A model generated the notes under the pieces. It was not told the DNA's origin. It saw only the letters and a list, made by a program, of their open reading frames with translations, and searched no databases. From NCBI GenBank assembly GCA_026418415.1, contig JAOABK010000020.1:1-34531 (forward strand): DNA of 34,531 nt. The letters run 5' to 3'. This document shows, piece by piece, positions 9,930 through 27,786 of this stretch; within the stretch, counting starts at the first letter, position 1, and each line of letters starts with the position of its first letter. The translations under genes and the position numbers were made by a program. The DNA comes from Pseudomonadota bacterium (lineage in GTDB: Bacteria > CALINM01).

Positions 9930-10987
9930 TATTTTTTTCAGTAATTTCTTACTTTTATTATGATGTTTATTATTGTAATCCAAAGGAGTTTTATAAAAGG
10001 CTGAAAAAAAATGTAGTTGTAATCTATACACTGATTAATGATGAAATAAAAGGTTTAGGAACTGGTTTTTTTCTAAAAGAAAGTGGACTTATATTAACTA
10101 ATTTACATGTCATTTCAAAGGCGACTGATATAAACATCAAGGGGGGAGATGGAAGGATATACACTCCCGAGAGTGTTAATTTTGTGGATTCTACCAATGA
10201 TTTAGCCTTAATTAAAGTGAAAGAAAAAAATCTTCCCGGGGGGCTTAAATTAGGAGATCCAAACAATGTGGAAGAAGGAGATAGGGTCTTTGTAATTGGT
10301 AATCCCGCTGGTTTTGAGTTATCTCTTTCTGAGGGTATTGTGAGTGGAAAGAGAAATATTGATCCTCTAACAAAGGAGTCGAGAGAGACCATTCAGATAA
10401 CTGCTCCAATCTCACCGGGTAGTAGTGGAAGCCCCGTCTTTAATAAGAGGGGAAAGGTAATAGGAGTTGCCTCTTTAGGTTCTAAGGGAGAAATTCAAAA
10501 TATCAATTTTGCATCTACTATAAAACCAGTTATGAATTATATGGCCTATGTAGATAGGTGCTATTTTAAATTTTTAGATAGAGATTCTGAATGGAGATAT
10601 ATTGATTCTATTTATACTTCCAATACTACTTATAGTAATTACTATTTTACCAATAGAGATTATTATTCATTTAGCTTTTATTATTCTCCAGAAACTTTTA
10701 CTCACGTAAATGAGGACGTTGTAACAGTATGGTTAAATATTAAGGGAAATATTACTACAAGGATAGAGAGTAATTTTTTCGAATATTTATATAAAGATAC
10801 GATTACTAAGGGAGACTTTTATTTATTAGTTGAAGTTAACTGTAAGGACAAGGTTTATAAAAATAGAATATCCTTTACTTACTTTGATAATCAATTAACA
10901 AAGGTTGTTGATGATTTTAGCGATGAAGGCTGGAGTGATTTAAATCAAACTATCATTAATAAAATCTGCAGTTTAAGGGAGAACTAA
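9926..10987 (+). CDS. Trypsin-like serine protease part of the frameshifted gene
   Basis: Read in this frame the sequence gives a hydrophobic membrane segment (LVFFSVISYFYYDVYY), then an S1C/HtrA-like protease: His in LTNLHVIS (codon 10106-10108), Asp in STNDLALIKV (10199-10201) and Ser in SPGSSGSPV (10424-10426), so the catalytic triad is intact. No ATG, GTG or TTG occurs between the upstream stop (9887) and GTG 10184, and starting at 10184 would lose the catalytic His. There is no PDZ domain. The last 140 residues (YFKFLDRDSEWRYID to KICSL) resemble surface-adhesin E-like domains: Trp near the start, a mid-strand VEVNC and a terminal Cys. That last call is weak. The protein is predicted to be membrane-anchored with an extracytoplasmic protease. 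Confidence 0.75.
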   Translation, partial: LVFFSVISYFYYDVYYCNPKEFYKRLKKNVVVIYTLINDEIKGLGTGFFLKESGLILTNLHVISKATDINIKGGDGRIYTPESVNFVDSTNDLALIKVKEKNLPGGLKLGDPNNVEEGDRVFVIGNPAGFELSLSEGIVSGKRNIDPLTKESRETIQITAPISPGSSGSPVFNKRGKVIGVASLGSKGEIQNINFASTIKPVMNYMAYVDRCYFKFLDRDSEWRYIDSIYTSNTTYSNYYFTNRDYYSFSFYYSPETFTHVNEDVVTVWLNIKGNITTRIESNFFEYLYKDTITKGDFYLLVEVNCKDKVYKNRISFTYFDNQLTKVVDDFSDEGWSDLNQTIINKICSLREN

Positions 10988-16314: not shown

Positions 16315-16442
16315 CGAAAAAGGATTTTGGTAAAATATTATAAAAATATCAGATGGCAGAAATCTAATTCTCCCAAAGAGACTATTCTAATTTTCTATCG
16401 GTTCCTAAAGAAAAGAAAAAAATAAAAAAGGAGGTGATTGAT

Positions 16443-16577
16443 TTGGTTTTCTTTATTATCTCAAACATTTTATCTTTTATTTTAGGTTTTATTGGGTATC
16501 TTATATTCAGCATACACCACAATAAAGTTTATTTTGATAAGGAAGGTAAAAAAATAAACAAAGAGTCAAAGGAATAA
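16443..16577 (+). CDS. Tiny membrane protein 1 (44 aa)
   Basis: A TTG start is preceded by AAGGAGGT ending 8 bases upstream, one of the best ribosome sites in the window. The 44 residues form one membrane helix, VFFIISNILSFILGFIGYLI, followed by a charged tail ending INKESKE. GTG at 16434 is in frame but too close to the Shine-Dalgarno sequence. The core IISNILSFILGFI is nearly repeated in the next small gene (IISNIISFYLGFI). I do not recognise the family. A strong ribosome site, similarity to its neighbour and operon position support a real gene. Confidence 0.65.
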   Translation: MVFFIISNILSFILGFIGYLIFSIHHNKVYFDKEGKKINKESKE

Positions 16578-16611
16578 ATAAAATTATCTAAATGAATAGA
16601 TGGAGGAAAAA

Positions 16612-16734
16612 ATGAATCTTAAACAGATTATAATTCTTATTATCAGCAATATAATCTCCTTCTATCTAGGATTTATATTCTTCTGCCACTTTTTAATGAA
16701 ATTAATCGAATCCATAGAAGAAAAAAATAAATAG
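16612..16734 (+). CDS. Tiny membrane protein 2 (40 aa)
   Basis: The ATG follows TGGAGG by 6-7 bases. The 40 residues begin MNLKQ, form one hydrophobic helix IIILIISNIISFYLGFIFFC and end in a charged tail IESIEEKNK. The helix core aligns with tiny membrane protein 1 over ISNI-SF-LGFI, so the two probably arose by tandem duplication. The stop is 8 bases before the peptidase ATG, with AGGAGG in between. Single-span proteins of this size can be toxins, regulators of a membrane partner or structural subunits; nothing here decides. Confidence 0.65.
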   Translation: MNLKQIIILIISNIISFYLGFIFFCHFLMKLIESIEEKNK

Positions 16735-16742
16735 GAGGTTTT

Positions 16743-17483: not shown

Positions 17484-17780
17484 ATGCTAAAAAAAGTAAT
17501 ATTTATTTTGTTTTTTGGATTAATTTTATCAATCCCTGTTTATTGTCAAAGTGGATGTTTTTCTGACATTGATTGTGGTATTGGGTTTAGATGCGTTAAA
17601 GCACCTTATAATTCAACAGGAACATGCATGAAAAATGTGAATGAATTTAGTATACAGCAGTATGAGGTGCCAAGATTAGAGAGCTTATATCCTAAGTATA
17701 GTGGAGATTGTTCATTCGATACAGACTGTCCTATCGGTTTTTATTGTCATCCCTATTATAAAGCCTGTATTAAAAGATAA
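17484..17780 (+). CDS. Secreted Cys-rich protein with two C-x5-C-x5-C repeats
   Basis: This 98-residue protein has a signal peptide (KKVIFILFFGLILSIPVYC) and two similar Cys modules: Cys25, Cys31, Cys37, Cys48 and Cys76, Cys82, Cys88, Cys95. Both contain C-x5-C-x5-C with the shared text D-C-x-IGF-x-C (DIDCGIGFRC and DTDCPIGFYC). Such small disulfide modules resemble Dickkopf-like or similar cysteine-rich repeats found in exported proteins of many bacteria. The signal end PVYC does not fit a lipobox well because of Tyr at -1. AGGAGG precedes the ATG; the gene is 12 bases after the peptidase. Confidence 0.7.
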   Translation: MLKKVIFILFFGLILSIPVYCQSGCFSDIDCGIGFRCVKAPYNSTGTCMKNVNEFSIQQYEVPRLESLYPKYSGDCSFDTDCPIGFYCHPYYKACIKR

Positions 17781-17916: not shown

Positions 17917-20900
17917 ATGCTGAACAAATTAGCTAAATACTACTTAGATATTTTAAATTCAATGTCTTCAAATCTTGGGAATCAGTTTATTGATATTACC
18001 AAGAAAATAAGGTATGGGTTGACAGCTGACTTGGGTATTTTTTCCTTGAATTTTAATCAATTGATAACGAATGATGAACTGACCTTCAAAATACAAAAGG
18101 TTAGAAGTAATTTTTTCGAGGAAGCCGATTCATTAGAAGTTGATATAGATGAAGAAAAACCTCAAAATGAGAATTCGAATAGAGAAATAGATCTTGCCAA
18201 CAAGGAGTTGGCGTCTAACATAATAGTTAACATATATAGAAAACAGGAATTTGATCAATACAATCGAGAAATAATTGTCGGATTTCCAATGGTTTCTGGA
18301 AAGGTGAACAGAAAAAGGTTTTGTGCTCCGATTTTTTATTATAAAGCGAAGTTGAATTATGACCCTGTTAAAAATGTTGTGACTCTTATAAAAGATTTTG
18401 AGATACCCGCTTTGAATTTTCAATTAATTAAATATATTGTTGAGGAGGATGAAGAGGTTGAGGTAATAAGAAAACAGATCTTGCCAGATCTGCTCGAAGA
18501 TTTTGAACCAGATAAATTAGAAAACATCATTAAAAAGTTATTTAATCTTGTAGATATATTCGAAGAAGTTGAGATAACAAATGCCAGTGATTTAAAAACT
18601 GCTATTGATTTAACTAAAATAGAAGGGGTCTATTTAGTCAATGCTTTAGTAATATTCAGCACTACAAGAACCAATCCCTATTTACTTGATGATTTATCTG
18701 AATTAATCAGTATGGAATCTATAAATTCAAATTCCATTGCCAATATTTTCATCTCAGAGGAGATTGAGCAATCAAATGATGCTTCTGAAAACAATAATAA
18801 CTTAAATGATTTTATACCACTCTTTCCATTATTAAGTAATAGAGCGCAGAGATTAACAGCTCTAAAAGCAGAAAATTCAAAACTCCTTGTGATACAAGGA
18901 CCACCTGGGACAGGTAAGTCTCAGACAATTGTCAATTTAATTTGCCATTTAACAGCAAATGGAAAATCAGTTTTAGTAGTTAGCCATCAGAATAAGGCTT
19001 TGGAAGTTATTACAAAGTTTATGCCCAATATCGAATATTTTGGTATGTCTATGCTAAAGAATGATAAGGAATCTATTAATGAATTGCGAAACAAACTTGA
19101 AAGTTTTCATGCCTATGTAAGTGGCATAGATGTTCATGCTTATCAAAAATATTTATCAAATAAATGGGAAGTTTTAAGAAATACTTATAGAAACATTGCA
19201 AGTTTAGAAGTTAGATTTAAACAATTAAAGGACATTGAAAAAAATAGTTTTTCAACCTATAAAAGGTATAACGATGTAAAAAGTTTTTACATAATCCATA
19301 ATAACGATAGGATTAATGATTTAAATGATGAATCTTGTATAAAATTAAAAGATTACTATGAAAATATTATAAAGATTAAAGAGTTTTATCAAAAATATGA
19401 TGGTAATATCCCTCTTCAGAATAAGCATCTTGATAAAATAATTGCCGAACTAAAATTTTTATCTGACTGTTTTAAAGATATCACATTAAATATTTTAAGT
19501 GATGAAAAGAAAGTCAATTTAAGTAAAAGCATATCTTCTGTTAATTTAGATTTAGATGTAGTTTTACAACAGGTTGATGAGTTAATAAGCTGGAATAACA
19601 AAAACTCAGATAAACTCATTAATGCAAAAAATTTCATTAAACTGGAAAATTTTAAAATTCTAAAAGCGAAATTTGAAAATTTTATGAAAGATAAAACTGA
19701 AATTGAAAGAAATTTTCTACAATTAGAAAAAACATTCGAAAGTATAAAAAAGATAAGTTCTTTAAATAAATTACCGCAAAGATTAAATAGAGAGGAATGT
19801 AAACTGGCAATAAATAATTCAAAAATACTAAACAGTTCATATAAATCTTTTTTTAAGTGGTATTTTTCAAAGAATGTAAGAAATGCAAGAAAATTCTTTC
19901 AACAATTAGGTTTTAATAAAATTAAAAGAGATGGCAAGGAAGTTAATAAAATTCTTGCTTGGAGTTATTTTTGGAATTGGAAATATGAATTAATTGAGAG
20001 AATTGGTATATTTGCAAAATTTGGTATACCTGTAAAAGAAGGAGCAATTGAAGATAGTATTGATGAGATAGCCTATAAAGTAAATTTTATAAAAAAATCA
20101 ATAGATGTATTAAATTCACTTTCTGAAGTTTTTAATAATGAAATTTATAGGCAAGTTGTTTTAATAAGAAGTTTTATTGATGATATAGCTTGTGAATCAC
20201 ATAAAATATTGTTGAACGAATACCTGATAAAAGCAAGAGATTACTTAGTTTACAAAAAGAGGCTTAAAGTATTAAAAGATAGTGGGCTTTTGAATGTTTT
20301 CAGAAATGAGATATTTATCAAGGAAATTATAGGTAATATTGAATCTTTGATTTTTGATGAAAGATTCAAAGAAAAGGAAAAGACATTATCAAAACTTATT
20401 AAAGAAATTGAAATATATGACAAAATAAAGAAATATGAGATGGAAGAATTAAGTAATTTCGAAAACACCTTTAGGTGGATTAGAGAACAAGTCTTTAAAA
20501 ATGAGCAAATTCCAGCCTTTGAAAATCTATCTAATATGGTTGAGGCATTCAAACTTGTTAACTTTATAAAAAAGGATCTTTTAGAAAACCCAGATGACAC
20601 ATATGAAATCTCGAAAAAAATTAAAGAGTTAAAAACACAATGTGAAGAAAAAATATTAGATATTATCAATACACAAAGAAAAATTGCCCTTAAAAATGCT
20701 GAAAGTGATGTTGAAAGTTTATTTGAGATAAACCAACTTATTAAGCTTTTAAAAAGAAAGAAAAAGACCCAATCCTTTGTTCAATTGAGAAATAAAATAA
20801 ATTACAGAAAAATTTTAAACCTATTTCCCTGCTGGATAATGAGTATAGATGATGTTGCAAGAATCTTTCCTTTAGAAGATGGGCTTTTTGATTATCTAAT

Positions 20901-22422
20901 AGTAGATGAAGCTTCACAATGTAATCAAGCAACAGTTCTACATCTTGCATATCGAGCAAAAAGGATGATAGTTGTTGGTGATAGTAAACAGATGAAAAAT
21001 CCCAACACCCAGTTTTTAAGTGAGACGATAGTTAATTTATGTCTGACAAATAATGAGTTAGATAAGCATATTAAATCCGTTTTTTTAAATTGCAGAAATT
21101 CACTTTTAGATCTAGCAATAGGCTGTCAGGATACAAGCCCGGTTTTTTTAAATGAACATTTTAGATGCGAACCACCTATAATAGAATTTTCAAATAGAAA
21201 TTTCTATAATAACCAGTTAAAGATACTAACACCATTAAGAAATAGAAGGTTTAATCCTTGCATGGAAATTAAGTTTGTTAATGGTGCGTATGATACCCCT
21301 GAGGATAAAAAAGTTAATGAATTAGAGGCAAAAGCGGTAGTTGAAGAGCTAAAAAGAATGGTTGAGGCTGGTGAATTAGATGATGAAAGAGGAAAGAAGC
21401 TTACTGTTGGTATTTTATCGCTATTCAGAAAACAGGCTTTATTTATACAAAATTTGGTATATGAAACCTTTGAAAAAAACCCCAGTATATTAAAAGATCA
21501 TGAAATAATAGTTTCTACTGTAGATGGGTTCCAAGGCGATGAAAAAGACGTGATTCTTTATTCCTTTAGATATGCTCCAAACTCAAAGCCGGGTATGATA
21601 ACAGTTCTGCAAAGAGATGATGAACACTCTTTGGGTAGGTTAAACGTTGCTTTTAGTAGGGCGAAAAGGAAGGTTGTGTGTTTTATATCTACACCCATAG
21701 ATAATTTCCCTAAAGGCATAATAAGAAATTATTTAGAACACGTAAGCAATGTCCAGAATTCCTCCTATAATAGATTAGGGATACCAGGGCAAAGAGAAAA
21801 ATGTCAAAGTAATTTTGAAAGGGATGTTTATGATGCGCTTGTAAGTAAAGGGGTTGAAGTATATGCACAATTTCCCTGTTCAGGATTTTTCATTGATTTC
21901 GTTGTTTTTGATAAAGAGGGGCGTAGAATAGCAATAGAGTGCGATGGCGATTTTCATTATGATGAATATGGGATTTTGCTTGAAGAAGATTTGCAAAGAC
22001 AGGATATAATTGAAAGATGTGGTTGGTATGTGCACCGTATACCATGCAGAAAGTTTTATGCTAATCCTGAGAAGGAAATAGAGAAAGTTTTAAAAACCCT
22101 TCAAAGTCAAGAAATAGATAATGAGATTTTAGGTGCTTTAAAAAGGGCATCACAACATAATGAGGTTACTGCAGAAGAAGTTAATACTAATAGTCAAGAT
22201 TTAACAAAGGAAGAAAAGAATATTTTAAAGCTAATATTTGAGGAAGGTTCAATGTTAGTTTGGCAAATATCAGAAAGAACTCATTTGAATAGAGATAATA
22301 TTATTGTTGTTTTACAAAATTTAGAAAAAAAGGGTTTACTAATTAATATTGAAAATAGCGAAGGTATTAGAAGTTGGGAGTTGAGTACAGAAGGGATGAG
22401 GATAATAGAAAAATTTATCTGA
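17917..22422 (+). CDS. SF1 helicase fused to PD-(D/E)XK nuclease and winged helix
   Basis: This 1501-residue protein has an N-terminal region of about 310 residues, an SF1 helicase core split by a long helical insert, and two C-terminal modules. Motifs: Walker A GPPGTGKS (328-335), Walker B with VDEASQ (996-1001), the late motif VDGFQGDEKDV (about 1202-1212) and RLNVAFSRAKRKV. The insert (about 380-960) is rich in Lys, Glu and Asn and probably coiled coil. The nuclease (about 1295-1400) is MTES_1575/DUF559-like with FERDVYDAL, D1327 in FIDFVVF and E1341-C-D-G, then RCGWYVHRIP. Residues about 1430-1501 form a winged helix (VWQISERTHLNR, LEKKGLL). Such helicase-nucleases are often in phage-defence loci; here no partner gene is obvious. 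No Shine-Dalgarno sequence. Confidence 0.85.
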   Translation: MLNKLAKYYLDILNSMSSNLGNQFIDITKKIRYGLTADLGIFSLNFNQLITNDELTFKIQKVRSNFFEEADSLEVDIDEEKPQNENSNREIDLANKELASNIIVNIYRKQEFDQYNREIIVGFPMVSGKVNRKRFCAPIFYYKAKLNYDPVKNVVTLIKDFEIPALNFQLIKYIVEEDEEVEVIRKQILPDLLEDFEPDKLENIIKKLFNLVDIFEEVEITNASDLKTAIDLTKIEGVYLVNALVIFSTTRTNPYLLDDLSELISMESINSNSIANIFISEEIEQSNDASENNNNLNDFIPLFPLLSNRAQRLTALKAENSKLLVIQGPPGTGKSQTIVNLICHLTANGKSVLVVSHQNKALEVITKFMPNIEYFGMSMLKNDKESINELRNKLESFHAYVSGIDVHAYQKYLSNKWEVLRNTYRNIASLEVRFKQLKDIEKNSFSTYKRYNDVKSFYIIHNNDRINDLNDESCIKLKDYYENIIKIKEFYQKYDGNIPLQNKHLDKIIAELKFLSDCFKDITLNILSDEKKVNLSKSISSVNLDLDVVLQQVDELISWNNKNSDKLINAKNFIKLENFKILKAKFENFMKDKTEIERNFLQLEKTFESIKKISSLNKLPQRLNREECKLAINNSKILNSSYKSFFKWYFSKNVRNARKFFQQLGFNKIKRDGKEVNKILAWSYFWNWKYELIERIGIFAKFGIPVKEGAIEDSIDEIAYKVNFIKKSIDVLNSLSEVFNNEIYRQVVLIRSFIDDIACESHKILLNEYLIKARDYLVYKKRLKVLKDSGLLNVFRNEIFIKEIIGNIESLIFDERFKEKEKTLSKLIKEIEIYDKIKKYEMEELSNFENTFRWIREQVFKNEQIPAFENLSNMVEAFKLVNFIKKDLLENPDDTYEISKKIKELKTQCEEKILDIINTQRKIALKNAESDVESLFEINQLIKLLKRKKKTQSFVQLRNKINYRKILNLFPCWIMSIDDVARIFPLEDGLFDYLIVDEASQCNQATVLHLAYRAKRMIVVGDSKQMKNPNTQFLSETIVNLCLTNNELDKHIKSVFLNCRNSLLDLAIGCQDTSPVFLNEHFRCEPPIIEFSNRNFYNNQLKILTPLRNRRFNPCMEIKFVNGAYDTPEDKKVNELEAKAVVEELKRMVEAGELDDERGKKLTVGILSLFRKQALFIQNLVYETFEKNPSILKDHEIIVSTVDGFQGDEKDVILYSFRYAPNSKPGMITVLQRDDEHSLGRLNVAFSRAKRKVVCFISTPIDNFPKGIIRNYLEHVSNVQNSSYNRLGIPGQREKCQSNFERDVYDALVSKGVEVYAQFPCSGFFIDFVVFDKEGRRIAIECDGDFHYDEYGILLEEDLQRQDIIERCGWYVHRIPCRKFYANPEKEIEKVLKTLQSQEIDNEILGALKRASQHNEVTAEEVNTNSQDLTKEEKNILKLIFEEGSMLVWQISERTHLNRDNIIVVLQNLEKKGLLINIENSEGIRSWELSTEGMRIIEKFI

Positions 22423-22629: not shown

Positions 22630-23058
22630 ATGAAAACCTATTGGCCTAAAAAAGATGATATCAAAAGAAACTGGTATTTAATTGATGCTAAAGGAAAAGT
22701 ATTGGGACGTATAGCAACAAAGATAGCTGAATTGCTTATTGGAAAGGGTAAAACTATATTTACTCCAGCAGTGGATACAGGGGATTTTGTTGTAGTTATC
22801 AATGCAAAGGAAGTTGTTTTAACTGGTAAGAAGTGGAAACAAAAGACCTATAACTGGCATACAGGATATCCAGGAGGTTTTCGTAGTATTACAGCTGAAA
22901 AGCTAAGAAATGAAAAGCCTGAAGAGATTTTATGGCAGGCTGTTTATGGAATGTTGCCAAAGAACAAGCTTCGTGACCACAGGATTAATAGGTTGAAAAT
23001 ATATACTGCTGATAACCATCCTCATATTGCTCAGAATCCTGTTCAGTTAAGTTTATAA
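22630..23058 (+). CDS. rplM: 50S ribosomal protein L13
   Basis: This 142-residue protein is L13, an early-assembly protein of the large ribosomal subunit. The family signatures are visible: RNWYLIDAKGKVLGRIATKI at the N-terminus, DFVVVINAKEVVLTGKKW, YNWHTGYPGG and the signature VYGMLPKNKLRDHRINRLKIY. Length is normal. AGAGGAG precedes the ATG by 9 bases. rpsI follows 26 bases later, the conserved bacterial L13-S9 operon. Confidence 0.98.
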   Translation: MKTYWPKKDDIKRNWYLIDAKGKVLGRIATKIAELLIGKGKTIFTPAVDTGDFVVVINAKEVVLTGKKWKQKTYNWHTGYPGGFRSITAEKLRNEKPEEILWQAVYGMLPKNKLRDHRINRLKIYTADNHPHIAQNPVQLSL

Positions 23059-23482: not shown

Positions 23483-24520
23483 ATGAAAAAAATCAAAGTT
23501 GCTATTTTAGGTGCAACAGGATATACAGGTGCCGAACTGGTAAGAATGCTGGTTCGGCATTCTTATATAGAATTATCAACTTTAACTACAAGACAGTATG
23601 TAGGAAAGAAGTTTTCCCAAGTCTTTCCATCTTTTACTGGTATCTGTGATATTGTTTGCACAGAAAATAACGATCCTGACTCTATAGATGCTGATTTAGT
23701 TTTTTCTGCGCTACCCCATCATGAATCTGCTCCTATTGTCGGTGAACTTGTAAAATCTGGTAAGAAAGTAATAGATCTAAGTGCTGATTTTAGAATTAAA
23801 TCTGAAAATACTTATAAAAAGTGGTATGGCGATCATCCATGTTTTGATCTTGTGGGTGAGGCGGTATATGGGCTACCAGAGATTTACAGAGAGGAAATAG
23901 TAAAAGCTAATTTAATTGCCAATCCTGGATGCTATCCCACTTCTGTTTTATTACCCCTATATCCTCTAATCAAGGAAGGGATTATAGATTTGAATAGGAT
24001 TATTGTTGATAGTAAGTCTGGAGTTAGTGGCGCTGGAAGGGGGCTTAGTCTTAAAACTCACTTTTGTGAGGTCTATGGTGGATTTAAGGCTTATAATGTT
24101 ACAGTTCATAGACATCAACCTGAGATAGCTGAACAGGCAAGTTTTTTTGCAAAATCACCTGTGGATATTATTTTTACTCCCCATCTTCTACCTATAAAAA
24201 GGGGAATTTTAAGCACAATTTATGTTAATATGAAAGGTAATTTTGAAGAGAAAGAGATTTACAATATTTATAAACAATACTACTCAAAAGAGAGATTTAT
24301 AAGGATTTTTGAGGAAGATTTACCAACGATTGAAAGTGTAGTTGGTAGCAATTTCTGCGACATAGGATTTAAGGTTGAAAAAAATACAAAGACTATTATC
24401 ATTATTTCAACTATTGATAATCTTATAAAGGGTGCTTCAGGACAGGCAATTCAAAATATGAATATTATGTTTGGGTTTCCAGAAGAGTCTTCTCTTGAAA
24501 ATATCCCTCTTTTCCCTTGA
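23483..24520 (+). CDS. argC: N-acetyl-gamma-glutamyl-phosphate reductase
   Basis: This 345-residue protein is ArgC, which reduces N-acetylglutamyl phosphate to the semialdehyde with NADPH in arginine synthesis. The nucleotide-binding start is VAILGATGYTGAELVRML, and the catalytic Cys150 is in IANPGCYPTS. SKSGVSGAGRG and AYNVTVHRHQPEI are further family segments. It begins 5 bases after rpsI without a clear Shine-Dalgarno sequence, so it is probably read with the ribosomal operon and may be translationally coupled. Its stop directly abuts the stop of the convergent tatD-fusion gene. Confidence 0.96.
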   Translation: MKKIKVAILGATGYTGAELVRMLVRHSYIELSTLTTRQYVGKKFSQVFPSFTGICDIVCTENNDPDSIDADLVFSALPHHESAPIVGELVKSGKKVIDLSADFRIKSENTYKKWYGDHPCFDLVGEAVYGLPEIYREEIVKANLIANPGCYPTSVLLPLYPLIKEGIIDLNRIIVDSKSGVSGAGRGLSLKTHFCEVYGGFKAYNVTVHRHQPEIAEQASFFAKSPVDIIFTPHLLPIKRGILSTIYVNMKGNFEEKEIYNIYKQYYSKERFIRIFEEDLPTIESVVGSNFCDIGFKVEKNTKTIIIISTIDNLIKGASGQAIQNMNIMFGFPEESSLENIPLFP

Positions 24521-25891
24521 TTAACCTAATTCATCATAGGGTCTTTCCCTAAATTTAACCCCTAACTCTCTTTCAGCGAATTTTTTTATTTTTTCCATAT
24601 CTAAGTCTGGAATGGCTACAGCGGATACTGTTACTTCCTTAATATGTTTTTTTGATTCTTTTATGAAATCTATTAGTGATTGAAAAGCACCATTTAATGA
24701 GGGGTGACAAATCCTATTGTAGGTTTCTTCGTCACAAGCATTAAGGCTAATTGAGATGGAATCGATGTAATTAGATAACTCTGGAACAATATTTCTTTTT
24801 TCTCTAATATTTGCTAAACCATCGGTATTTAATCTTATCTTTTTTGCTTTTCTATTTCTTAGTTCTTTAGAGAGTTCGTAGATTAATTTTAGTCTCAGAG
24901 TTGGTTCTCCATAGCCACAAAAAACTATTTCATCATAGGTAGAAAGGTCTTGGGGAAGCTCTTCTATGATTTCATCAATTGAGGGTTCATGTTCAAGTTT
25001 TAAATAGTGTCCCTTTACGAAAAAATCTTTTTGTTTGCCACAAAAAACGCATTTATTTGTGCATCTATTTGTTAAATTCAGGTAAAGGGCGTTACGAATT
25101 TTATATACATATTTTGAATTGTACTCAAAGGGTAGGTTAAAAACCTTCATTGTATTCACATAAATAGTTCTTGCGGTGTCTTCAATCGAGAGACCTTTAA
25201 TTTTTGCAATAAACTCCGTTGTATATTTTACAAAGGCTGGTTCATTTCTTTTACCTCTAAGGGGATTAGGTGTTAAAAAAGGGGCATCCGTTTCAGTTAG
25301 AATAAAATCAAGAGGAATGTTTTTTACTACTTCTTTAAGTGTTTCTGCATTTTTATAAGTAATTGTGCCTGGTATTGATATATAAAAACCCATTTTTATA
25401 TAGTCCTTTGCATCTTGAAGATCTCCTGAGAAGCAATGTATAATACCCCCAAGACTTTTGTTTTTGAGGATTTCTTTTGCTTCTTTATGGGCATCTCTTA
25501 TATGAATAATGACATCCTTTTGTAGCTTTTCAGCAAGTTCTAATTGTTTTATAAATACCTCTATTTGCTTTTCCCTTGGGGAGTAGTTCTTATAAAAATC
25601 AAGCCCGATTTCTCCTAACATGAGACATTTCTGATGTTTAAGATAGGAAATTAGCTCTTCTTCTATTTTTTTATTGTATATTTTAGCTTCGTGGGGATGG
25701 AGCCCGACAGAAAAATAAATTTTTTCATACCTTTCAGCAATTTCTTTTGCAATTTTCCAAAATTTTGGTTCTATTCCAACAGTACAGAGGAAAGAGATGT
25801 TTGAATCAAAAGCTCTTTTAATTACCGCTTCTCTATCGTGATCGAATTCTGGCAATTCTAAATGGGTATGTACATCCACAAAATTGTACAT
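24521..25891 (-). CDS. TatD-family hydrolase fused to a radical SAM domain
   Basis: Residues 1-255 are a TatD metal-dependent hydrolase/DNase: DVHTHLELPEF (His8, His10), GEIGLDFY (Glu94), IIHIRDAH (His130), IIHCFSG (His152) and TETDAPFLTP (Asp202), so all metal ligands are present. Residues about 265-456 are a radical SAM domain with CTNKCVFC (Cys277, Cys281, Cys284) and FCGYGEPTLR. A TatD-linked radical SAM protein is a known family, also as a fusion, but its reaction is not established as far as I know. The gene is last in the usp-to-tatD unit and its ATG overlaps the metG stop by one base (TAATG). Confidence 0.9.
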   Translation of the reverse strand: MYNFVDVHTHLELPEFDHDREAVIKRAFDSNISFLCTVGIEPKFWKIAKEIAERYEKIYFSVGLHPHEAKIYNKKIEEELISYLKHQKCLMLGEIGLDFYKNYSPREKQIEVFIKQLELAEKLQKDVIIHIRDAHKEAKEILKNKSLGGIIHCFSGDLQDAKDYIKMGFYISIPGTITYKNAETLKEVVKNIPLDFILTETDAPFLTPNPLRGKRNEPAFVKYTTEFIAKIKGLSIEDTARTIYVNTMKVFNLPFEYNSKYVYKIRNALYLNLTNRCTNKCVFCGKQKDFFVKGHYLKLEHEPSIDEIIEELPQDLSTYDEIVFCGYGEPTLRLKLIYELSKELRNRKAKKIRLNTDGLANIREKRNIVPELSNYIDSISISLNACDEETYNRICHPSLNGAFQSLIDFIKESKKHIKEVTVSAVAIPDLDMEKIKKFAERELGVKFRERPYDELG

Positions 25892-27786
25892 TATCTGACC
25901 TGACTACCAGCCTTAACATCTTTTTCTGGTATAACAAGTGATAAGCCCTTTTCATCAGATGCAGCTAGTATCATGCCTTCGGATTCGATTCCCATTAGTT
26001 TTGCTGGTTTGAGATTTGAAACAAAGGTTATTTTTTTACCAATCATTTCTTCGGGTGTATAAAATTTTCCAATCCCCGCAACAATAGTTCTTTTTCTCTC
26101 ACCATCATCTACAGTAAGTTTTAGTAATTTATCTGATTTTTCAACCTTTTCTGCAGAGATGACATGCCCGATTTTTAATTCTACTTTAGCAAAGTCTTCA
26201 ATGGATATTAGATTTTTTTCTTCTCTTTTCATCTCTGAAGGGGTGACTTTTTTTCTCTCTTCCTCCAAACGGGAGAAAAGATCGGGTATCTGGACTACCT
26301 GGAATGTTCCACCAATTTTACCAAATTCTCTTGCCATTGGGTTGTTTTTAATATAAGACTCGAGGTCTTCATTGATTCCAAGTGTTCGAAAAATTTTATT
26401 AGCTGTTTCTGGCATAAAGGGATATATCAAGATTGCTGTAGTCCTTATACCTTCCATTAGATTTGACATAACTAATTTTAAGTCCTCTTCTCTTTTATTT
26501 TTATGAAGAGCCCATGGCTCTGTCCCAACTATGAACTTATTTAAAATGTTAATAAAGTTCCAGACCTGTTCTAAAGCCCTACTAAAAGATGAGTCTAACA
26601 TAGCATTATCATATTCTTTGATAGTCTCTTCAAAATGTGCTGCTAAAGATGGGTGTATGCCAATATTTAAGGGTAATTCATATCTACTATTAAGAAACTT
26701 TTCTACCATTGAAACGCTTCTTTTTACAAGATTGCCTAAGTCGTTCGCAAGGTCACTGTTTATCCTTTTAATCATTGCCTCATGTGAAAAATCTCCATCA
26801 TTTCCAAAGGGAACTTCTCGAAGTAAAAAGTACCTGAAGGGATCAACTCCGTATTTTTCCGTTAATGCAAAGGGATCTATAGCATTTCCTAATGATTTAC
26901 TCATCTTTTGACCCTCCACAGTCCACCAGCCGTGGGCTACCACCCTTTTGGGTAGTGGGAGTCCTGCTGATAAAAGAAAACAGGGCCAGTAAACTGCATG
27001 AAATTTTAAAATATCTTTACCAATGAAGTGTTCCGCAGGCCAAAAGGTATTAAACTTGTCCATGTCATGGGGATAACCTGCAGCGGTTATATAGTTTGTT
27101 AATGCATCAAACCAAACATAAATCACGTGTTTTTCATCACCAGGGACTGGTATTCCCCATTTGATAGATGTCCTTGATATGCTAAGATCTCTTAATCCCT
27201 GTTTAACAAAATTTATTATTTCATTTCTTCTTGATGGGGGATAAATAAATTCTGGGTTTTCCATAATATAATTAAGAAGTGGCTCCGTATACTTAGACAT
27301 TCTAAAAAAGTAACTTTCTTCCTTCAGTTTTTCAACAGCTCTGCTACATTCTGGGCATTTTCCATCAACAAGTTGGCTATCGGTTAAAAAGGTCTCACAG
27401 GGAATACAATACCAGTCTTCATATTCTCCTTTATAAATATCACCATTTTCCATTATCTTTTTAAAAAGATAAGTAACCGTTTCGTAATGCCTTTTTTCTG
27501 TTGTTCTTATGAAATCGTCATTTGAAATATTTAAGACTTTCCATAATTTTTTAAAGTTCTCTACTACTCTATCTGCTAATTGTTTTGGCTCTATTCCTTG
27601 AGATTTAGCGGTTTTTTCGATCTTCTGTCCGTGTTCATCTGTGCCTGTAAGAAAGAAAACTTTTTCACCCTTTAGTCTATGGTATCTTGCAGATGCATCT
27701 GCTGCAATAGTTGTATAGGCATGACCTATATGGGGAACGTCATTTACGTAATAGATGGGGGTGGTAACATAAAAGGTATTTTTCAT
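25891..27786 (-). CDS. metG: Methionyl-tRNA synthetase
   Basis: This 631-residue class I synthetase charges tRNA-Met. It has the HIGH motif at 19-22 (PHIGHAY), a zinc knuckle with Cys127, Cys130, Cys144 and Cys147, and KMSKS at 294-298. The C-terminal 100 residues (ISIEDFAKVELKIGHVISAE, then AGIGKFY, then KITFVSNLKPAKLMGIESEGM) form the EMAP/Trbp111-type tRNA-binding domain fused to the enzyme. Its ATG overlaps the ricT stop by 4 bases (ATGA). Confidence 0.97.
   Translation of the reverse strand: MKNTFYVTTPIYYVNDVPHIGHAYTTIAADASARYHRLKGEKVFFLTGTDEHGQKIEKTAKSQGIEPKQLADRVVENFKKLWKVLNISNDDFIRTTEKRHYETVTYLFKKIMENGDIYKGEYEDWYCIPCETFLTDSQLVDGKCPECSRAVEKLKEESYFFRMSKYTEPLLNYIMENPEFIYPPSRRNEIINFVKQGLRDLSISRTSIKWGIPVPGDEKHVIYVWFDALTNYITAAGYPHDMDKFNTFWPAEHFIGKDILKFHAVYWPCFLLSAGLPLPKRVVAHGWWTVEGQKMSKSLGNAIDPFALTEKYGVDPFRYFLLREVPFGNDGDFSHEAMIKRINSDLANDLGNLVKRSVSMVEKFLNSRYELPLNIGIHPSLAAHFEETIKEYDNAMLDSSFSRALEQVWNFINILNKFIVGTEPWALHKNKREEDLKLVMSNLMEGIRTTAILIYPFMPETANKIFRTLGINEDLESYIKNNPMAREFGKIGGTFQVVQIPDLFSRLEEERKKVTPSEMKREEKNLISIEDFAKVELKIGHVISAEKVEKSDKLLKLTVDDGERKRTIVAGIGKFYTPEEMIGKKITFVSNLKPAKLMGIESEGMILAASDEKGLSLVIPEKDVKAGSQVR

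Follow-up and report, generated by a model that had tools for sequence, protein, structure and literature searches.

A predicted single-gene SF1 helicase-nuclease with a hypervariable helical insert and a swappable C-terminal tail

The stretch of DNA analyzed here (the window) comprises 34,531 nucleotides, positions 1 to 34,531 of the forward strand of contig JAOABK010000020.1, from a genome assembly of a Pseudomonadota bacterium (GCA_026418415.1; GTDB lineage Bacteria; CALINM01). Its plus strand contains a single open frame, starting with ATG, that encodes a 1,501-amino-acid (aa) helicase-nuclease; the start position is backed by co-linear N termini among the relatives. The original prediction, made from the sequence alone, described a superfamily 1 (SF1) core with a long helical insert and a PD-(D/E)XK nuclease with residues D1327 and E1341, and both the coordinates and the residues are correct (Table 1). 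As also claimed, the gene stands alone between small genes and the ribosomal protein genes rplM and rpsI. Its product is predicted, with moderate confidence, to act on its own against mobile elements, as one of the enzymes that join a UPF1-like SF1 helicase to a Vsr nuclease.

Table 1. Features of the helicase-nuclease gene and its downstream flank (positions in the window)
Feature	Position	Strand	Evidence
Whole gene, SF1 helicase-nuclease, 1,501 aa	17917..22422	+	Full-length co-linear relatives
N-terminal domain, aa 1-300, family specific	17917..18816	+	No Pfam match in the window protein; 31-44% identity to relatives
First RecA-like domain, N-terminal part, aa 301-441, with Walker A and motif Ia	18817..19239	+	AAA_11; motif alignment
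Walker A, GPPGTGKS, aa 328-335	18898..18921	+	Motif alignment
Hypervariable helical insert, aa 442-882	19240..20562	+	Low identity, length variation, helical in model
Remaining helicase core, aa 883-1275, motifs II-VI	20563..21741	+	AAA_12; motif alignment
Walker B, D997-E998 (motif II from D997)	20905..20910	+	Alignment
MTES_1575/Vsr-type PD-(D/E)XK nuclease, aa 1300-1395	21814..22101	+	PF18741, 85.4 bits
D1327 codon	21895..21897	+	Aspartate in all 11 aligned rows
E1341 codon	21937..21939	+	Glutamate in all 11 aligned rows
C-terminal winged helix, about aa 1428-1490	22198..22386	+	Subthreshold TrmB/MarR matches; model; Foldseek winged helix-turn-helix matches
rplM (L13), downstream flank	22630..23058	+	PF00572; 89% identical in same-genus genome

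The motor belongs to the UPF1-like group of SF1 helicases. It combines Walker A and B with motifs Ia to VI and the AAA_11/AAA_12 arrangement, both of these Pfam domains scoring above their cut-offs (aa 308-386 and 1061-1255, respectively). All helicase motifs are intact and can be aligned in 11 of 11 rows (the window protein and its relatives). The Walker A sequence is the same in all seven relatives of the clade and in two of three more distant rows, the third having GPPGTGKT. The relatives of known structure found by sequence are UPF1-clade motors, namely, SEN1, SMUBP-2, DNA2, and UPF1. The nuclease is of the MTES_1575/Vsr type, with conserved D and E residues and a score well above the curated PF18741 cut-off of 38.2 bits; DUF559 also matches (31.2 bits; cut-off, 20.6). 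Within the N-terminal domain, profile comparison shows a weak similarity of aa 102-177 to the N termini of PDC-S37-type proteins.

The C-terminal winged helix is the weaker part of the proposed architecture. Its fold pattern, three helices and two strands, is present in the AlphaFold model, with predicted local distance difference test (pLDDT) scores of about 54 to 70, and Foldseek finds winged-helix matches to this region, none of them at an E value of ≤0.001. The profile matches are all below threshold, with TrmB at 22.5 bits (cut-off, 25.6).

The helicase and nuclease are conserved among the relatives, and the parts attached to them are not. The two helicase parts are 51-69% and 56-74% identical to those of the window protein and the nuclease is 56-70% identical, compared to 18-26% for the insert. 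The insert consists of 441 aa in the window protein, where it is all-helical in the model, and of 448-495 aa in four relatives, 601 aa in L011, 636 aa in L009, and 112 aa in L043 (L and G numbers denote loci and genomes of this analysis). The inserts of L009 and L011 contain two tandem module duplications each, with local alignment scores of 140-176 versus maxima of 47-51 among 300 shuffles each, for segments chosen by eye from the alignment; a self-BLAST of the insert printed no duplications. The inserts of L008 and L009 also contain a CxxC-CxxC stretch resembling a zinc ribbon.

The tail behind the nuclease is a winged helix in the window protein, L008, L009, and L011. L010, L012, and L043 share another domain at this position, and L037 has none. 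The tails of more distant relatives consist of DUF3320, of TPR repeats (by eye), or of no domain. Of the 10 tails scanned, 3 have DUF3320 behind the nuclease (L007, L044, and L045); the tails of the window protein, L008, L009, and L011 have no match to it. As the DUF3320 region was described as a winged helix-turn-helix (wHTH) domain in 2013 (PMC3710099), a terminal winged helix is not the unusual feature it was taken to be. The tail behaves as a swappable slot; the engine is conserved and the accessory parts are variable.

One relative has lost the engine altogether. In G171, a 421-aa frame (L038:10104-11369) fuses the N-terminal domain in frame with the winged-helix tail; it corresponds to residues 1-320 of L009, with 93% identity, and to residues 1607-1705, with 75% identity. 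The whole motor and nuclease are missing, and the reading frame is kept. Excluding 9 ambiguous sites, the N-terminal part shows 5 replacement and 9 silent polarized changes on the G171 branch and 8 and 7, respectively, on the L009 branch, which are too few to separate decay from constraint. The fusion lies between gatA-like and gatB-like frames (by eye), together with PIN-domain and DUF1016 genes.

Full-length co-linear relatives are found at seven loci, L008 to L012, L037 (G188), and L043 (G612), in genomes labeled Nitrospirota, Myxococcota, or Bacillota or carrying no phylum label. Within its own phylum, the gene is present only in the window's genome and absent from the other two of the three genomes examined. 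Among the 230 genomes in the class of G063, 12 have a match at an E value of ≤1e-60, comprising 3 whole-length proteins, 1 deletion variant, and 8 matches to the helicase-nuclease part only. Matches are also found in 3 of 113 genomes in the class of G062 (2 of them whole-length), in 1 of 5 genomes in the class of G060, and, at an E value of ≤1e-100, in 3 of 398 genomes among the relatives of G062. These searches overlap, the class of G062 lying partly inside the relatives of G062, and therefore no overall frequency is given. A viral origin of the gene was considered and is ruled against by two scans of viral contigs, neither of which found a relative.

In the phylogenetic tree, the window protein and the seven relatives form a clade (support, 95/99) that is separate from the PDC-S37-like rows, including L028, and from the Hhe/DUF3320 rows. 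The order of branching inside the clade is for the most part not resolved, and 8 of the 22 inner branches of the tree are open. Same-gene fragments and duplicates (L001, L013, L015 to L024, L026, L030, L036, and L042) were left out of this tree, L026 being the deletion variant without the core; rows L004, L009, and L044 entered it with longer stretches than the others. The locus differs in each relative. The clade is small and patchy, with horizontal spread. Vertical inheritance at one locus, which the original prediction had named as the pattern that would favour housekeeping repair, is not supported, given the different loci of the relatives and the absence of the gene from both other genomes of the phylum.

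The neighborhoods of eight loci were read (the window, L008, L009, L010, L011, L012, L038, and L043; L037, on a 6.4-kb contig, is not counted), and five of them contain a defense or toxin-antitoxin gene, a raw count without a background control. Upstream of L010, at a distance of about 5-9 kb, lie genes for the type I proteins HsdS and HsdR. L009 is followed by a PDC-S09 nucleotidyltransferase and HepT and preceded by a DarG-like protein. L008 has a kinase gene 0.4 kb downstream, with mad6, PD-T4-6, and MkoA as the nearest profiles. L038 has a PIN toxin-like gene and a DUF1016/PDC-S02 gene. L012, the weakest of the five cases, has a WYL protein directly upstream. These five neighborhoods would fit an association with defense islands; the window, L011, and L043 have no such gene close by. 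As the neighbors to be scanned were picked by eye, an absence of defense neighbors is not proved by these readings.

Further afield, a more distant, PDC-S37-like helicase-nuclease (L039:1-14702, in G180) lies between cas1/cas2 and cas6/csm5, beside a CRISPR array of about 34 repeats. Other more distant relatives are found on plasmids, where they are annotated as hhe. At L008:5497-7607, the Mokosh/PD-T4-6-like Ser/Thr kinase gene is followed by an overlapping gene for a 391-aa protein with no Pfam match; it is possible that these two and the helicase-nuclease gene form an operon. Directly downstream of the short-insert relative, L043:5518-7281 encodes a 587-aa protein with no Pfam or PADLOC match.

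The best profile matches of the window protein are to defense families. In PADLOC, the best profile is PDC-S37 (264 bits; E value, 6.4e-79), which aligns aa 269-1427 with positions 252-1367 of 1,550 and leaves the N-terminal 268 aa and the winged helix unmatched; no curated cut-off is shown for this profile, and the PDC-S37-like row L028 falls in a separate clade. Other PADLOC matches are Hhe and MkoC (152 bits). The best NCBIfam match is ProA (NF058533; 283.2 bits; E value, 3.9e-84; aa 259-1425), a model of 1,903 positions with an equivalog cut-off of 1,500 bits; Hhe (NF042953) scores 206.7 bits against an equivalog cut-off of 2,000. The window protein is assigned to neither ProA nor Hhe, because it falls short of both cut-offs. 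It resembles Hhe in having a UPF1-clade helicase followed by a nuclease, and aa 944-1398 are about 29% identical to an annotated plasmid Hhe. DUF4011, the N-terminal domain of Hhe, is not among the matches listed for the window protein (25 of 27 Pfam matches) and has no match in the N termini of six of six aligned rows.

Similar proteins have been described. Giant SF-I helicase-Vsr (MTES_1575)-wHTH (DUF3320) proteins lacking modification genes were reported in 2013 (PMC3710099). They share with the window protein the SF1 helicase, the nuclease family, a C-terminal wHTH, and the lack of a methylase but also bear HEPN and transglutaminase domains; the window protein differs from them in its N-terminal domain, and its tail has no DUF3320 match. 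In the UPF1-like helicases of the CoCoNuT systems, Walker A is followed by a large helical insertion; CnuH of Type III-B has, in addition, a fused Vsr-like nuclease, as in the window protein (PMC11090510). CoCoNuTs, however, act with McrB/McrC homologues, and the wHTH of Type III-B is N-terminal rather than C-terminal. Hhe, MkoA, and MkoC have been placed in the UPF1 group (PMC10925250). The likeness to Mokosh (MkoA and MkoC) lies in the UPF1-clade helicase and, for the relative L008, in the adjoining Mokosh-like kinase gene, but the window protein has no match to a kinase or PLD domain. Vsr nucleases are also found fused to a different helicase family (PMC12458937). Searches under the names PDC-S37, ProA, and MTES_1575 nuclease found no literature. 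Given these descriptions, the SF1 helicase-Vsr-wHTH combination is already known, and the clade is a variant of it. What is new is a clade with its own N-terminal domain, a hypervariable arm, a winged helix other than DUF3320, module duplications, a swappable tail, and a deletion relative.

Upstream of the gene, the window contains a gene weakly resembling M28 peptidases, a gene for a small Cys-rich protein, and several tiny frames. The Cys-rich protein (98 aa; positions 17484-17780) has a signal-like N terminus and weak Myxo_Cys_RPT repeats. Positions 16440-16735 contain two consecutive tiny membrane-like frames, each preceded by a Shine-Dalgarno-like motif (by eye). In contrast to these genes just upstream, the ATG of the helicase-nuclease gene is not preceded by such a motif (by eye). 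A Pfam scan of 24 window proteins, which did not include 23483-24520, 24521-25891, 25891-27786, and a few small open reading frames, found no methylase. On both points the expectation is borne out. A 456-aa frame at 24521-25891 looks, by eye only, like a fusion of a TatD-type nuclease with a radical-SAM-like part, and a Trypsin_2 peptidase gene at 10184-10987 adjoins a DUF975 gene. RNA families and tRNAs were not found in the window.

A search for flanking repeats as insertion marks yielded only chance-like A+T-rich pairs. An empty site is not visible, as the G001 contig starts 235 bases before rplM. The DUF748 protein has no match in G001 or G002, nor does the 8.4 kb of upstream DNA, in a search without a positive control. 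Contamination of the genome bin is not favored; because rplM of this contig is 89% identical to the copy in the same-genus genome, the contig is taken to belong to the genome.

The architecture, the profile matches to defense families, the patchy distribution, and the five neighborhoods are consistent with a defense function. The original proposal is partly supported: a defense-like character is the best reading, but an unusual nature of the winged helix is not borne out. In such an enzyme, the accessory parts (the N-terminal domain, the fast-evolving helical arm, and the winged helix) would find foreign or abnormal nucleic acid, the ATP-driven SF1 motor would then travel on single-stranded nucleic acid, and the C-terminal nuclease would cut it. 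A methylase would be dispensable, since the enzyme would respond to a structure or another feature of the invader, not to an unmethylated site. Such a mode has been proposed for the SF-I helicase-Vsr-wHTH proteins, with the C-terminal wHTH recognizing the invading DNA (PMC3710099).

Several observations weigh against a defense role. The 5-of-8 count lacks a matched background density, and toxin-antitoxin genes are common. No defense gene was found among the neighbors scanned in the window. L011 has none close; the nearest candidate is a pair resembling HigB/HigA (by eye) at a distance of about 7 kb, of which the gene at 21987-22259 has no PADLOC match; L043 is flanked by transposase- and recombinase-like genes (by eye), not by defense genes. 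The profile scores are far below the ProA and Hhe equivalog cut-offs. The viral contigs contain no relative, and phage records show only distant matches to the core (3 of 50,697). The AlphaFold models, built from alignments of 6 sequences each, are poor (mean pLDDT, 47.7 and 55.4), and Foldseek searches with them gave no match at an E value of ≤0.001.

The UPF1-like motor and Vsr-type nuclease might instead act on RNA, as proposed for CoCoNuT. RNA targeting is predicted for the insert-bearing UPF1-like helicases, to which a Vsr-like nuclease is directly fused in Type III-B (PMC11090510), and the solved relatives include the RNA helicases UPF1, SEN1, and SMUBP-2. DNA2, however, belongs to the same clade, matches too, and acts on DNA; no McrB/McrC partner is found among the 24 window proteins scanned; and a MarR/TrmB-like winged helix suggests, without proving, double-stranded DNA. 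RNA-directed defense appears unlikely, and DNA would be the more probable substrate. The match to DNA2 could also point to a housekeeping helicase-nuclease of repair or replication, a bacterial DNA2-like example of which, Bad, is known (PMC7430649), and the gene does adjoin housekeeping genes. Such a role is not favored, because the gene is absent from the other two genomes of the phylum; together with the different loci elsewhere, the hypervariable insert, and a relative from which helicase and nuclease are deleted in frame, this makes it very improbable.

The gene might also be a nonfunctional or weakly expressed passenger of a variable block rather than a working defense gene. The missing Shine-Dalgarno motif, the lack of a plus-strand promoter-like site just upstream, the 8.4 kb of upstream DNA unmatched in G001 and G002 (in the uncontrolled search mentioned above), and the relative devoid of helicase and nuclease would all fit this explanation. 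The 1,501 open codons and the intact motifs argue for recent selection, however, and the passenger explanation is accordingly given little credence.

The anti-mobile-element enzyme therefore remains the preferred reading. In a more far-reaching and quite doubtful version of it, the clade would be an unnamed single-gene defense family in which recognition or triggering takes place on the helical arm, rapidly rebuilt and placed between the two Walker motifs. A separable unit for nucleic acid binding or regulation would be formed by the N-terminal domain together with the winged helix, and the G171 product, far from being debris, would have a natural role as a regulator or decoy.

The arm differs nearly sixfold in length between relatives whose motor and nuclease are conserved. 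If the protein is defensive, it would be a compact, modification-free helicase-nuclease, the sensing part of which could perhaps be located by its variability. Exchanging arms or tails between relatives, and using the natural deletion product, would then allow a direct test of what UPF1-like defense helicases recognize.

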